From Spirogloea muscicola (lineage: Eukaryota; Streptophyta; Zygnematophyceae; Spirogloeales; Spirogloeaceae), in the NCBI GenBank assembly GCA_009602725.1, contig WELB01000087.1:107122-146170 (forward strand): DNA of 39,049 nucleotides. Reading direction: 5' to 3'. Shown here in pieces: positions 54 through 30,813 of the stretch. Both the position numbers and the translations under genes were made by a program. Under the pieces are notes generated by a model. That model was not told the origin of the DNA. It did no database searches and saw nothing but the letters and a program-made list of their open reading frames with translations. Numbering within the stretch: the first letter of the stretch is position 1; every line of letters begins with the position of its first letter.

Positions 54-16398
<16,345 letters not shown>

Positions 16399-25415: not shown

Positions 25416-25620
25416 GGCTCTGGCCAGGGGACCCACTTCCAGGAGCATAGCATCTCTAATCTGCGGCTGCTTAGCAGGGGTTACTGATCAATCGTAGCTG
25501 CTTTGTTTCTTGGTGTGCTTGTTTCTCTTAGCGCTTCCCCTGGCCCCCTTTTCCGTACTTTGTTCATTCATTTTTGGGCTGGCTTTTCCAGCCCCTATAC
25601 TCAATCGGCGAGCACTTTCT
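25416..25620 (+). mobile_element. Family A retrotransposon 3' end (middle of a three-element chain)
   Basis: Begins inside the codons for SGSG (GGCTCTGGCCAGGGGACC), keeps the RGY-stop (GGTTACTGA), the 3' UTR, the hairpin GGGCTGG-CTTTT-CCAGCCC (about 25576-25594) and the terminus ending near 25620. It is directly preceded by the family C terminus and followed by another family A copy, all in the same orientation. Confidence 0.8.
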
Positions 25621-26449
25621 ATTTTTAGTGTTGGGCACGGGAGCACCTTTGGCCGCGGCCGGCGTCGACAAAGCCGCCTACACCACCGTCGTACTGCAGC
25701 TCCCTGAGGCCGACCAGCGCGGGCGCGCGAGACTCCTCTCTGCCTCGTCCCCGGGAGCAGCGGCGTGGCTTCAGGCCCTCCCCCTCACCGACGCCCTCAC
25801 GCTTCCCGATGAGGTCTTCCGTACTGCAGTCCACAGGCTCCTGGGCTTGCCGCCTCCTTGTCTCCAGGGCGTGCGACAATGTGCATGCGGCGAGCGAGGG
25901 GCCGAGTCTGGGGAGCTAGCCCCCCACGTCCTGCGCTGCGCTCACGGCGGCGAGCGGACGGCGGCCCACGACCGCCTCCGCGATGCCATGCATGGCATCC
26001 TGGCGGAGGCGGGCTTCTCGGTGGCTGCGGAGCACTCCGGCGTCATGCCGCTACAGGAGAGGGCCGACGGTGTCCACGGCCGGCGAGTCGACCTGGTGGC
26101 CACCCCACAGGCCGGCGGGCCACGTCTTCTCCTGGACGTGGTGACCACCGACGCCTTCGACCGCTCCCACCCAGTCCAGTGTGCCACCCAGGCTGGGTAT
26201 GCGGTCGAAGGCGCCGCTCGCGCAAAGGTGACCAAGTACGCCGACCATCCGCCAGCCGACGCGTTCTTCCCTCTGGCTATCGACACCCATGGGGCGTTGG
26301 GTGCTCGGTGGCTCGAACTGCTCCACCAACTTGCTCGTCACGCCGTTGCCCGCCGCTTCCATGGGGAGCCGGTGGACTTCCCCGCCGCCGGGTCGTTGGC
26401 CCAGGTGTATCGCATGCGCCTGGCCGTCTCGCTGCAGAGGTCCATGTTT
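25621..26449 (+). pseudogene. C-terminal part of a non-LTR retrotransposon polyprotein: zinc knuckle and restriction-like endonuclease region
   Basis: Longest retrotransposon frame in the window, open from about 25634 to the assembly gap. It starts after the reverse transcriptase: the segment with RARLLSASSPGAAAWLQALP and VHRLLGLPPP is typical of the region following RT. A CxC...HxxxC knuckle (CACGERG ... HVLRC) comes next. The PD-(D/E)XK-like block RRVDLVATP ... RLLLDVVTTD and KVTKYADH follow, then the conserved tail FHGEPVDFPAAGSLAQVYRM. The reading matches restriction-like-endonuclease (R2/CRE-type) elements; this is inference from motif order. The rest, including any stop, lies in the gap. 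Confidence 0.78.
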
Positions 26450-27302
26450 NNNNNNNNNNNNNNNNNNNNNNNNNNNNNNNNNNNNNNNNNNNNNNNNNNN
26501 NNNNNNNNNNNNNNNNNNNNNNNNNNNNNNNNNNNNNNNNNNNNNNNNNNNNNNNNNNNNNNNNNNNNNNNNNNNNNNNNNNNNNNNNNNNNNNNNNNNN
26601 NNNNNNNNNNNNNNNNNNNNNNNNNNNNNNNNNNNNNNNNNNNNNNNNNNNNNNNNNNNNNNNNNNNNNNNNNNNNNNNNNNNNNNNNNNNNNNNNNNNN
26701 NNNNNNNNNNNNNNNNNNNNNNNNNNNNNNNNNNNNNNNNNNNNNNNNNNNNNNNNNNNNNNNNNNNNNNNNNNNNNNNNNNNNNNNNNNNNNNNNNNNN
26801 NNNNNNNNNNNNNNNNNNNNNNNNNNNNNNNNNNNNNNNNNNNNNNNNNNNNNNNNNNNNNNNNNNNNNNNNNNNNNNNNNNNNNNNNNNNNNNNNNNNN
26901 NNNNNNNNNNNNNNNNNNNNNNNNNNNNNNNNNNNNNNNNNNNNNNNNNNNNNNNNNNNNNNNNNNNNNNNNNNNNNNNNNNNNNNNNNNNNNNNNNNNN
27001 NNNNNNNNNNNNNNNNNNNNNNNNNNNNNNNNNNNNNNNNNNNNNNNNNNNNNNNNNNNNNNNNNNNNNNNNNNNNNNNNNNNNNNNNNNNNNNNNNNNN
27101 NNNNNNNNNNNNNNNNNNNNNNNNNNNNNNNNNNNNNNNNNNNNNNNNNNNNNNNNNNNNNNNNNNNNNNNNNNNNNNNNNNNNNNNNNNNNNNNNNNNN
27201 NNNNNNNNNNNNNNNNNNNNNNNNNNNNNNNNNNNNNNNNNNNNNNNNNNNNNNNNNNNNNNNNNNNNNNNNNNNNNNNNNNNNNNNNNNNNNNNNNNNN
27301 NN
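26450..27302. other. Assembly gap (N run)
   Basis: 853 undetermined bases. The retrotransposon frame enters it on the left; the promoter/5' UTR of the lumen repeat-protein gene leaves it on the right. Frames drawn through the N are artefacts. Confidence 1.
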
Positions 27303-27613
27303 GCGTCCGACGTGGTTGCGCCACGCGGCGGCCACGCGGCGGCCTGCCGGCGCGCTGGACGCCACGTCAGCCGCCGCCCGCCCGGCCCGGACCAGGCTCC
27401 GGCGGGCGGGGCCCTCTCGCCTCGATCAGCACGTAGCCGTGACCGCCGCCTCGCCTGCGGCTCAGCCCGCCGGCCCCGAGCGGGAGCTACAGGCCCCCCT
27501 GGCCAGCTTACATGTCGTGAATCTGGCCGCCATTTCCGAACTGCAGCCCAACCTCAGCTCCCCAGCCAACCATCCAGCCAAGCGGAAGCCAGCAAGCTCC
27601 TCCTCGCAGCACC
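27303..27613 (+). promoter_or_regulatory. 5' region of the lumen repeat-protein gene
   Basis: GC-rich at the gap edge, then a pyrimidine- and CCAGC-rich leader up to the ATG at 27614. It is likely 5' UTR plus the proximal promoter, cut off by the gap. No TATA box or other defined element is recognised. Confidence 0.45.
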
Positions 27614-30600
27614 ATGGCGTCCTCCACCCTGCAGGCCGCCTCCGTGATCAGCGGCGTCCCCGTTGGCCAGGCCAGCGCCAGCGAGTTCTGCGGGAAGCAG
27701 GTCCGGCCGTCCGTGGCGGCCGTCGGCCCCGTTCGCACCAAGCACGCCGTCTGCGTTCGTGCCAAGGTACTTTCGGGAATATTCAGCTCCTGAATTGGAT
27801 GAATTTAGCAGCCTGACTACTTTGGAATCTGGCCTGCAGGTTATCTGTTGTGCAAGAATCGCATGACGTTGAGATATATATATATATATAACCGCGCTCT
27901 CTTGAACTGGCTTCATCTCAACTCTGCAGGCTCAGGACAATGAGGCTCCCAGCCGCCGAGCTGTGCTGCTGGCAGCTGCTGCTGCTGCTGCTCTTGGAAA
28001 CAGCAGCACAGCCAAGGCCGACAACCCAATTGGCATTGGCAGCGCTGGCGTTGGTGGCCGATCTGATAGCAGATCTGCAGGCCAGGCCACCGCTCAGAAG
28101 GCGGGGGCCATCTTCAGTGGTGCCGGCAAGCTAGACAAGAAGGACGTCAAGGATTCACCAACTAACAATGAGAGCGGCATTGCCCAGAAGTGAGCCTTGC
28201 CAGTCAGACTGAGCACAGCAACACAATCAGCCTGCTCCAGCAGTAGTAGGCAGATGCACGAGACTTTGAAATTAACGACTGCTATGTTATTGCAGGGCTG
28301 GCAGTGGCATCCGAGACCTCAACAACAAGGGCTCTGGCAATAGCCGCAACGCAGTCAGGAAATTCAGCGATGTTGGTGATATTGCTGGTGATGTCAATGT
28401 ATGTGTCTTGCACAAAGTATCATGTGGTCTGCCCTGGCTGTGCACAAACGTGGAAAGTTTCACCTTTGAGCATGACAGCAGCTGCTTGCTGCTATTTTGA
28501 TGGCTGAGGAAAGTTACACGCTCTGACATTTGATAGTAAATTCAGTCAGTGATCCGGCTTCCTTATGTGCGAACAGGATACTGTGAGCAACTCCGTAGGT
28601 CAGGGTCGGAGTGAGGGTCAGGGCTTCCTCGACAATATTGCCGAGGTCAGGCAATCCAGTGTTTCATCTCTGGACCATGAAGCTGCTGATTCAACGCACA
28701 CATCGAGCTCCTGCACGGAATTTTTACATGCCAGCTGTTGTTGGAAGCTAGGTGGATCGATTTCGACAGAGAGCGATGAGCACAGCAGTACATGGAAGCA
28801 CTTCTGCTCGTCTCTCTGAGGCTTTCTTCTCAAGCTTACTGGTGAATGATCTGTTTCCTTGTGCAGGGAGTGAAGAACGCTGGTAGCAGCAGCAACAACA
28901 ACCAGGACTTTGCCTCAAACTACGGTCAGGGTGGCCAGGATCAGAGGGAATCCAAGGGCCTCTTCGGCTTGGGTGGCCAGAACCAGTCCAATGGCCAAAA
29001 CCAGTCCAAGGGCCTCTTCGGCCAGGGCGGAGGGAAGAAGTCACCGGAGGCCAGCTCGACCAATGAGTCCGCTGACTTCGCTCGGGGTGAGGCAGACATT
29101 GTTGGCGGTGTAAGGTCCAACGCTGACAACGCACAGGGACAGTCGAAGGGCCTCTTCGGCCAGATCAAGGACAGTGTCTCTGGCAGTGCTGATGCCGCCA
29201 AGTCTGCAGCTGACAGTGCCCAGGGCCAGTCTGGGGGGTTGTTCGGCCAGGCCAAGGACACGGTCGACAGCGGGATTGACGCTGCAAAGTCTGCAGCCGA
29301 CAATGTACAGGGCCCAGGCAGGAATTTGTTCGGCCAGGCCAAGTCGGCCGCTGATGATATCCAGAACCAGTCTGGTGGCTTGTTTGGCCAGGCCAAGAAC
29401 AAGGTCAGCAGTGACATCAACAATGCCAAGTCTGCTGCTGATGACGCGCAGGGCCAATCTCGGGGTCTCTTTGGCCAGGTCAAGAACAAGGTCAGCAGCG
29501 ACATCAACAACGCCAAGTCTGCAGCTGATGACGTGCAGGGCCAGTCCAGGGGTCTCTTTGGCCAGGTCAAGAACAAGGTCAGCAGCGACATCAACAACAC
29601 CAAATCTGCAGCTGATGACGTGCAGAGCCAGTCTCGGGGTCTCTTTGGCCAGGCCAAGAACAAGGTCAGCAGCGACATCAACAGCGCCAAGTCTGCAGCA
29701 GACAATGCTCAGGGCCAGTCCAGGGGCCTCTTCGGCCAAGCCAAGTCAGCAGCTGATGATGCCCAGGGCCAATCGCGGGACCTATTCGGTCAGGCCAAGA
29801 GTGCAGTCGAGAGTGGTATTGATTCTGCGAAGTCGGCAGCTGATGATGCCACCGGTCAGGGCCAGGGTTTGTTCAGCCAGGCCAAGAACAAGGTCAGCAG
29901 CGACATCAACAACACCAAGTCTGCAGCAGATAATGCTCAGGGCCAGTCTAGTGGTCTATTCGATCAGACCAAGAATGCAGTAGATGATGTTACCGGTCAG
30001 GGCCAGGGGTTGTTCGGTCAGGCCAAGAACAAGGTCAGCAGCGACATCAACAACGCCAAGTCTGCAGCAGATAATGCTCAGGGCCAGTCCAGGGGTCTCT
30101 TTGGCCAGGTTAAGTCAGCAGCTGAGGATGCCCAGGGCCAGTCGCGGGACCTTTTCGGTCAGGCCAAGAATGCAGTTGATGATGCCACGGGTCAGGGCCA
30201 GGGTTTGTTCGGCCAGGCCAAGAACAAAATCAGCAGTGACATCAACAGAGCCAAGTCAACAGCTGACAATGCTACCAGGGGCCAGTCTGGAGGCCTCTTT
30301 GGTCTTGGGGGCCAGGCCAAGAACAAGGTTAAAAGTGACATCAACAGTGTGAAGTCCGCAGCTGGCAATGCTACCCAGGGTCGATCAGGGGGCCTCTTTG
30401 GCCTTGGAGGCCAGTCAAGTGGAGACCAGGGGGTGAAGAATAAGGTCAGCAGTGACATCAACACATTCAAGTCCCAAGCCAAGAATGCCACAGGTGGTGA
30501 TGGTGAGGGGCTTCTGGGCAACATCAAATCTGGCATCCAGGTGCGCAACAACATTGGTAGTTCCACATCCTGCTTTGATTTGAAGTCGAGGGATAATCAC

Positions 30601-30813
30601 GTGTCGATCATCTTGGGTTTTTTCTGTTAGTTGCTTCTTGCTGCAGACTGTGACAATAAAAATGTTGTACTTCTGGTATGATTGTTGTTGACAACATCAA
30701 TGTCTCGTGGCCACTTCTTTGTAGTGTTCTGTCCACCCCTGCTCTATGTTTTGTAAATTATTCTGATTCACAATTTGATTGTTATTACCTTGCAGGACGC
30801 TCTTGGCCAGTAA
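27614..30813 (+). CDS. Thylakoid-lumen-targeted GLFG/LEA-like repeat protein (758 residues, six exons)
   Basis: Exons 27614-27766, 27930-28189, 28296-28398, 28577-28645, 28867-30540 and 30796-30813 join in phase. Residues 1-51 are a Ser/Ala/Val-rich chloroplast transit peptide ending VCVRAK. Exon 2 opens with a twin-arginine lumen signal (SRRAVLLAAAAAAALGNSST, RR at 60-61) cleaved after AKA (79-81). The mature part begins DNPIGIG, is Gly/Ser/Asn-rich and disordered, then carries 18 tandem repeats of the type GLFGQAKNKVSSDIN-NAKSAADNAQ (29137-30540). Repeats with AK/SAAD amphipathic segments resemble group-3 LEA proteins, so a protective role in the lumen under cold or drying is conceivable but unproven. 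If the last intron is not used, translation ends at 30630 instead, after 30 other residues. I do not recognise a named family. Confidence 0.85.
27874..27891. repeat. AT dinucleotide microsatellite
   Basis: A run of AT repeats in intron 1 (27767-27929) of the lumen repeat-protein gene. No function is inferred. Confidence 0.95.
29137..30540 (+). repeat. Coding minisatellite: 18 units of 87 or 54 bp
   Basis: Each unit starts with GQ(S)xGLFGQ and ends with a Gln/Thr-rich joint. Long units have 29 residues (e.g. GQSRGLFGQVKNK + VSSDINNAKSAADDVQ); short units have 18 (GQSRGLFGQAKSAADDAQ). The short form lacks exactly 11 residues of the long form. Some units use GQGLFGQ after ATGQ, and the last two have GLFGLGGQ inserts. 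Neighbouring units such as 29457-29543 and 29544-29630 are nearly identical in DNA, so the array is evolving by unequal exchange. Frames on the other strands across this array are shadows. Confidence 0.92.

Follow-up and report, generated by a model that had tools for sequence, protein, structure and literature searches.

Proteins that resemble the gene product described here come from several known systems. Group 3 late embryogenesis abundant (LEA) proteins of the LEA_4 type, such as COR15A and mitochondrial LEA, are hydrophilic, possibly disordered, and targeted to organelles, and they are built of 11-residue modules with an amphipathic helix period near 98° to 100° per residue. COR15A is described as a stromal chloroplast LEA protein with a published membrane-protecting effect (PMC7215670, PMC2292704); it is reported to form amphipathic helices at low water content and to protect chloroplast membranes (PMC7215670). 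Perilipin 4 is reported to form a very long, repetitive helix in a single register with an asymmetric polar face (PMC6164224), FG/GLFG nucleoporins carry GLFG motifs, and HIC6 and HIC12, the hardening-induced LEA proteins of Chlorella vulgaris, are presented as algal LEA-type cryoprotectants (PMC3749462). Here, we analyze a gene of Spirogloea muscicola located at positions 27614 to 30813 (plus strand) of a 39,049-nucleotide stretch of contig WELB01000087.1, referred to below as the window, together with the family to which the gene belongs. The family shares the LEA_4 features listed above but differs in having GLF linkers, a predicted lumen signal, and no match to the Pfam LEA_4 model. Like perilipin 4, it has a very long repetitive sequence in one helical register with an asymmetric polar face; perilipin 4, however, coats lipid droplets and has 33-residue units, whereas the family is predicted to face a bilayer in the lumen and has units of 18 or 29 residues. 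GLFG motifs are shared with the nucleoporins, from which the family is set apart by its predicted plastid/lumen signal, charged linkers, and helical register. Chlorella is a chlorophyte, whereas the host of the family is a streptophyte, as judged by PsbO. The best matches of the PsbO exons of this genome are five chains that we take to be from land plants (E values of 1e-71 to 3e-66); the next chain, presumably green-algal, follows at 7e-56. The likeness of the proposed role to that of the HIC proteins is one of description, and GLFG linkers go unmentioned for them in the excerpts of that source used here (PMC3749462).

The window gene (C87, after its contig; relatives are named in the same way) has six exons with GT/AG borders and no frame breaks, encodes 758 amino acids, and terminates with a TAA stop ending at 30813, in agreement with the initial annotation. 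Exon 1 (27614 to 27766) provides the ATG start and 51 residues whose composition suggests a chloroplast transit peptide and which are 94 to 97% conserved in the sister copies. Exon 2 (27930 to 28189) carries the putative lumen signal (27930 to 28019) and, from 28020 on, the predicted start of the mature protein, whose N-terminal part continues in exons 3 (28296 to 28398) and 4 (28577 to 28645). Exon 5 (28867 to 30540; 1674 nucleotides) is the repeat exon, with exactly the 558 codons originally assigned to it, and exon 6 (30796 to 30813), conserved in sister genes C63 and C177, adds DALGQ and the stop. The predicted mature protein, starting at D82, comprises 677 residues (67.9 kDa, isoelectric point 8.89, grand average of hydropathy −0.79) and contains no Cys, Trp, His, or Met.

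It had been doubted whether the signal exons are joined to the repeat exon. On contig C101, the gene has an intronless partial copy (locus L014, 623 to 1372, minus strand), in which exons 2-3-4-5 are fused and which is bounded by unrelated sequence at both ends; it has the appearance of a retrocopy derived from a spliced transcript. Strings spanning junctions 2-3, 3-4, and 4-5 are present in this copy and absent from the window; in the 3-4 string, AAG is found as in the sister genes, while exon 3 of the window gene ends in AAT. Since the copy carries exons 2 to 5 already joined, the signal exon is spliced to the repeat exon, which removes the doubt for this part of the gene. For the exon 1-2 join, the evidence consists of the frame, borders, and coding sequence conserved in three genes. 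Neither of the two outcomes named at the outset as contradicting the annotation, namely, RNA data with exons 1 and 2 unjoined to the repeat exon or close homologues of known function, was encountered, in an analysis that had neither RNA data nor a eukaryotic protein database to draw on.

Between 28957 and 30507, the repeat exon contains 19 linkers that fit the pattern [GDN]LF[GSD], mostly arranged in 18- or 29-residue units. Eighteen of the linkers are [GD]LF, 14 are exact GLFG, and 11 are GLFGQ; the earlier count of 18 repeats thus holds for [GD]LF and falls one short of the full pattern. The 18 linker spacings are 18 residues (six times), 29 residues (nine times), and 46, 30, and 33 residues (once each), meaning that 15 of 18 correspond to 7 + 11 or 7 + 22, as expected from the 11-mer modules recognized initially. 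At the DNA level, tandem repeats of 54, 87, 99, and 141 base pairs (bp) are found in the array. At 100° per residue, spacings of 18 and 29 residues equal 5.0 and 8.06 helical turns. Because these values are close to whole turns, every linker would fall on nearly the same face of a helix.

Helical register was assessed by scanning the angle in 0.1° steps, in the same way for the data and for controls, with 1000 random versions per control. Residues 290 to 728 of the window protein (29149 to 30465), 439 residues in total, are amphipathic in one register, with the best angle at 99.4° per residue. The hydrophobic moment at this angle is 0.278, compared to a mean of 0.080 and a maximum of 0.132 in 1000 shuffles. 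Since shuffling also destroys the repeats, a fairer control was one in which the length of each unit was altered by up to 3 residues: none of 1000 such length-randomized versions reached 0.278 (mean of 0.130 and maximum of 0.202). The moments of C63 and C177 (0.267 and 0.257) were likewise reached by 0 of 1000 length-randomized versions each; that of the distant relative C62 (0.184, at 102.5°) was reached by 1 of 1000 and is marginal. Relative to shuffles, the z values of the four proteins are 17.7, 12.6, 10.6, and 8.4, and the register spans 287 to 439 residues across them. As to the distribution of residues around the C87 helix, 60 of 72 Leu, Ile, Val, and Phe residues lie within 60° of the hydrophobic direction, and 62 of 63 Ala lie between −120° and +60°. 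Lys and Arg are concentrated in the two flanking bins (41 of 49, with 32 on one flank and 9 on the other), 34 of 80 Asn and Gln occupy the flank opposite the Lys/Arg-rich one, and the back face holds 32 of 44 acidic residues and 44 of 61 Gly.

The GLFGQ element had been viewed as a turn, a proposal that the register analysis does not support. Linker spacings of 18 and 29 residues equal whole helical turns, and in an AlphaFold2 (AF2) model of exon 5, helices at residues 67 to 147, 151 to 245, 256 to 364, and 372 to 475, together with three shorter ones, run through the GLFG linkers, at low confidence [mean predicted local distance difference test score (pLDDT) of 50.5]. The linkers are therefore probably not a turn, and the turn was dropped as first choice. 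The AF2 model of C62 has shorter helices (mean pLDDT of 40.3). In a study of tardigrade LEA proteins, long AF2 helices of low confidence were taken as consistent with a protein that passes from disorder to helix (PMC10808001). By charge-hydropathy analysis, three of the four mature family proteins fall, narrowly, on the disordered side. All three sister exons exceed the Pfam cutoff of 22.1 bits for Apo-CII (PF05355), scoring 30.2, 30.8, and 27.0 bits; C62 is not listed. Apo-CII is a family of lipid-binding helices.

Open reading frames (ORFs) of the same genome served as controls. Three LEA_4 ORFs have moments of 0.188 to 0.220 at 98.7° and z values of 3.7, 4.4, and 5.7, which are lower than those of the family partly because these ORFs are shorter; their register extends over 176 to 185 residues, and their charged fraction is 0.37 to 0.39, compared to 0.18 to 0.21 in the family (0.21 in C87). 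These controls (L028, L029, and L030, on contigs C83, C279, and C164) are not independent, being 93 to 94% identical to L028. The three loci are probably another triplicated set. Three FG-repeat ORFs, two of which are 92.7% identical and thus also not independent, have moments of 0.051 to 0.072 with z values of −1.0, −1.2, and −1.1, i.e., no register, and a charged fraction of only 0.01 to 0.07. By these same-genome controls of register and charge, the family resembles LEA proteins in design and is unlike FG nucleoporins.

We consider it somewhat more probable than its alternatives combined (roughly 55%) that the window gene encodes an LEA-like protein, disordered at first, that adopts a giant amphipathic helix along the lumenal face of the thylakoid membrane upon drying or freezing. 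The precursor would enter the chloroplast through its transit peptide, and the twin-arginine signal would then carry the chain over the thylakoid membrane, with predicted cleavage after AKA. In water, the mature protein, hydrophilic and of near-neutral net charge, should be largely disordered. Loss of lumen water, freezing, or defects in lipid packing might drive its folding into a very long amphipathic helix, in which 7-residue GLFG linkers and 11-residue modules, adding up to whole turns, would form one continuous stripe of Leu, Phe, Val, Ile, and Ala facing the lipid. Lysines would be placed at the stripe edges, mostly at one of them, and most acidic residues and Gly would face away. The Leu-Phe pair of each linker may act as a strong membrane anchor, and alanine and valine as weak filler. 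Such a helix could coat the lumen-facing leaflet and prevent membrane fusion, leakage, and aggregation. LEA-like protection in the lumen was also put forward initially, as one hypothesis, and is kept as the best hypothesis, without the GLFG turn and nucleoporin component that accompanied it. A helix rises 1.5 Å per residue, so a straight 439-residue helix would measure ~66 nm. The stronger version of this explanation, according to which the family crosses the thylakoid membrane by the twin-arginine translocation (Tat) pathway as a chain with more than 500 residues largely unfolded, to become one continuous lumen-side helix of up to ~66 nm dedicated to protection during drying and freezing, is put forward tentatively and is, in our judgment, rather doubtful.

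Several observations weigh against the proposed stress-induced helix. The register peak is narrow: setting the angle to exactly 100° lowers the C87 moment to 0.102, and a single rigid 439-residue helix would therefore need a very constant twist. The Lys/Arg residues lie mostly on one flank (32 versus 9), so that the helix does not qualify as a clean class A type. Taken alone, units are only weakly amphipathic, with shuffle P values of 0.01 to 0.34 for seven peptides and, in a separate test, of 0.04 (29-mer) and 0.08 (18-mer), and 15.8% Gly, along with Asn and Ser, makes a poor helix composition. Confidence is low for both AF2 models. C62 falls on the other, ordered side in the charge-hydropathy analysis, contains prolines within its units, lacks the Apo-CII match, and shows a weaker register at a different angle. 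Pfam LEA_4 (PF02987) is matched neither by the window exon (E values up to 10) nor by its three relatives (E values up to 1) in a profile search that drops most matches above E = 0.1, whereas the model does recognize LEA_4 genes located elsewhere in this genome. As COR15A likewise is reported to have no significant LEA_4 match (PMC2292704), the missing match is not decisive; nevertheless, the family is not assigned to LEA_4 by the formal Pfam model, and what stands of the LEA likeness noted initially is the 11-mer amphipathic modules and the LEA-like register. Last, Tat export of a disordered chain of ~680 residues is a problem, since it would exceed reported limits: tolerance for unstructured FG repeats is given as ~100 to 120 residues, and a short hydrophobic stretch is reported to halt export (PMC6708511). 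The chain might be helical or bound while still in the stroma, it might follow a different route, or Tat might have a wider capability.

The data do not distinguish the stress-induced helix from a constitutive one, and the same register is expected if the giant helix is a constitutive coat or spacer that shapes or stabilizes thylakoids or sets lumen width without any role in stress. The asymmetric flanks of C87 (32 of 49 Lys/Arg on one and 34 of 80 Asn/Gln on the other) resemble the charge asymmetry of perilipin 4, proposed to allow side-by-side packing (PMC6164224), and the Leu-Phe pair in each unit may be more hydrophobic than is usual for LEA helices. The Pfam perilipin model is not among the 15 families listed for the window exon at E values up to 10. 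A hydrophilic, possibly disordered composition is, however, typical of protectants, and we regard a constitutive coat as unlikely, though it is the best of the alternatives.

Another possibility is that the Leu-Phe-Gly linkers cohere as in GLFG nucleoporins and form a condensate or gel that fills the lumen. The 14 exact GLFG motifs speak in favor of it, as does the fact that Pfam Nucleoporin_FG (PF13634; cutoff of 32.2 bits) is exceeded in three of the four family exons (45.8 bits in the window gene and 37.7 and 63.1 bits in two others); the C177 exon, at 32.1 bits, is just under the cutoff. The FG-repeat ORFs of the same genome nonetheless have far fewer charged residues and no helical register, and the linker spacing of the family follows helical turns. 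A lumenal gel of this kind is thus improbable. The same two properties, charge content and register, led us to reject nucleoporin identity despite the PF13634 score, and the reading of GLFG as a nucleoporin-like element is not supported. The bipartite plastid/lumen signal predicted for all four genes likewise speaks against a location at the nuclear pore.

Targeting to the lumen is predicted from the signal itself. In the window gene, exon 2 begins with a lumen signal that ends SRRAVLLAAAAAAALGNSSTAKA, followed by D, the predicted first residue of the mature protein; C62 has the signal RRTAMLALSSATIALDALVGGQSVEAA followed by W. The twin arginines, hydrophobic core, and AxA motif are found in all three sister genes and, with different letters, in C62; a phase-0 intron lies at the border between transit peptide and lumen signal in both subfamilies, including the equivalent position of C62. 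Sequence comparison thus reveals a bipartite signal in all four intact family genes found, supporting the transit peptide and twin-arginine lumen signal of the initial annotation. PsbP is a standard Tat cargo, and the PsbP gene of the same genome (L036) has an RR...AxA signal of the same type preceding AYGQAANVFG, which we take to be the PsbP mature start. Among six PsbP loci, a signal is visible in this one within the stretch examined; two PsbQ loci used as a further control (L016 and L017), both of which carry runs of N, show no convincing signal. We therefore predict delivery to the lumen by the twin-arginine signal with cleavage after AKA. A Rubisco linker or pyrenoid matrix protein, also considered, was set aside on account of the apparent lumen signal. 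Could the signal be misread, with the protein acting in the stroma or at the inner envelope? Long unstructured chains are reported to be poorly handled by Tat (PMC6708511), and COR15A is described as stromal (PMC7215670, PMC2292704). Conservation of the signal in the sister genes and C62 and its match to PsbP argue against a stromal location, which we find quite improbable.

Searches for relatives covered the same genome [153 million bp (Mbp)], and since only the best candidates were scored, the family count is a lower bound. Sister genes C63 (671 amino acids) and C177 (588 amino acids) have the same six exons as C87, with linker spacings that are also mostly 18 and 29 residues; the three are not independent of one another. 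C62 (649 amino acids) has two exons with GLFGQ and 11-mer units and is ~45% identical over the repeats. These four genes are intact, with no inner stops, and the recurrence of the layout in the three relatives of the window gene, along with the dN/dS values given below, indicates that it is not a product of chance. Truncated copies are located on contigs C94, C101, and C6, the one on C94 sharing its reading frame with the end of a retroelement. A match on C185 (L013, 2014 to 2637, minus strand; 207 amino acids, 31% identity) proved to be a different ORF with YDKTKQQAGE repeats, LEA-like by eye, and was excluded from the family. Compared to the window copy, the sister exons are 89 to 97%, introns 76 to 88%, and the 3′ flank 74 to 75% identical. 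The ratio of nonsynonymous to synonymous substitution rates (dN/dS) among the three sister genes is 0.15 to 0.23 in exons 1 to 4 and 0.15 to 0.20 in the repeat exon, and these genes are under purifying selection. A functionless repeat expansion, to which the varying lengths of the sister genes (758, 671, and 588 amino acids) and the truncated copies might point, is very improbable given these dN/dS values, the four reading frames free of inner stops, and the retained 18- and 29-residue spacings.

Outside the genome, the closest relatives in the Protein Data Bank had E values of 0.18 and 1.3 only, and NCBIfam gave seven matches for two family proteins, none at cutoff. Pattern scans seeded by two short peptides each returned 344 and 48 matches in prokaryotic contigs and 40 in viral contigs, with no confirmed relatives among them. 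Among the literature matches listed, none linked GLFG/FG repeats or LEA proteins with Tat delivery to the thylakoid lumen.

The window ORF at 9553 to 11409, presumably part of a BEACH/WD40 gene, has three matches in the genome (E values up to 0.001), on C87, C177, and C63, each located 15 to 17 kilobases from the repeat exon. Three collinear sister genes, together with an upstream neighbor that also occurs three times, indicate an origin of the sister genes in a regional or whole-genome triplication; a genome triplication is known in S. muscicola. A long series of ORFs at 2034 to 16398 (plus strand) of the window resembles one large gene, which we take to be a BEACH/WD40/FYVE gene.

The 311 bases upstream of the start codon, including the 5′ untranslated region (27303 to 27613, plus strand), are 94.5 and 95.5% identical to the corresponding regions of C63 and C177. 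This is about as high as the identity of the exons and above that of the introns and 3′ flank, which could be due to constraint or to gene conversion. Each of the three copies, which are non-independent, contains two ACGTGG cores in this region, one of them overlapping CCGAC, compared to 0.18 to 0.24 expected from shuffles; C62 has one ACGTGG core. These sites resemble the drought and cold elements of plants. A run of 853 N (26450 to 27302) lies directly upstream of the conserved region. Just 5′ of the gene, a retroelement-like ORF at 25532 to 26449 (plus strand) ends QVYRMRLAVSLQRSM. Similar retroelement-like pieces are located upstream of the C63 copy and, by eye, of C177 (also at L009, L010, and L012).

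Both parts of the proposed stress-induced helix have precedents: COR15A for folding-driven protection, as described from the stromal side (PMC7215670), and perilipin 4 for a coat made of a giant helix, as reported for that protein (PMC6164224). A helix would be kept in register by alternating modules of 7 and 11 residues, a design rule by which other proteomes can be searched. The family also poses a clear question about Tat, namely, whether plants export a long, unfolded, GLFG-rich chain through this pathway. If the proposed function is true, an LEA-like protein targeted to the lumen would mean that, in an alga closely related to land plants, the thylakoid has a separate protection for its inner face.

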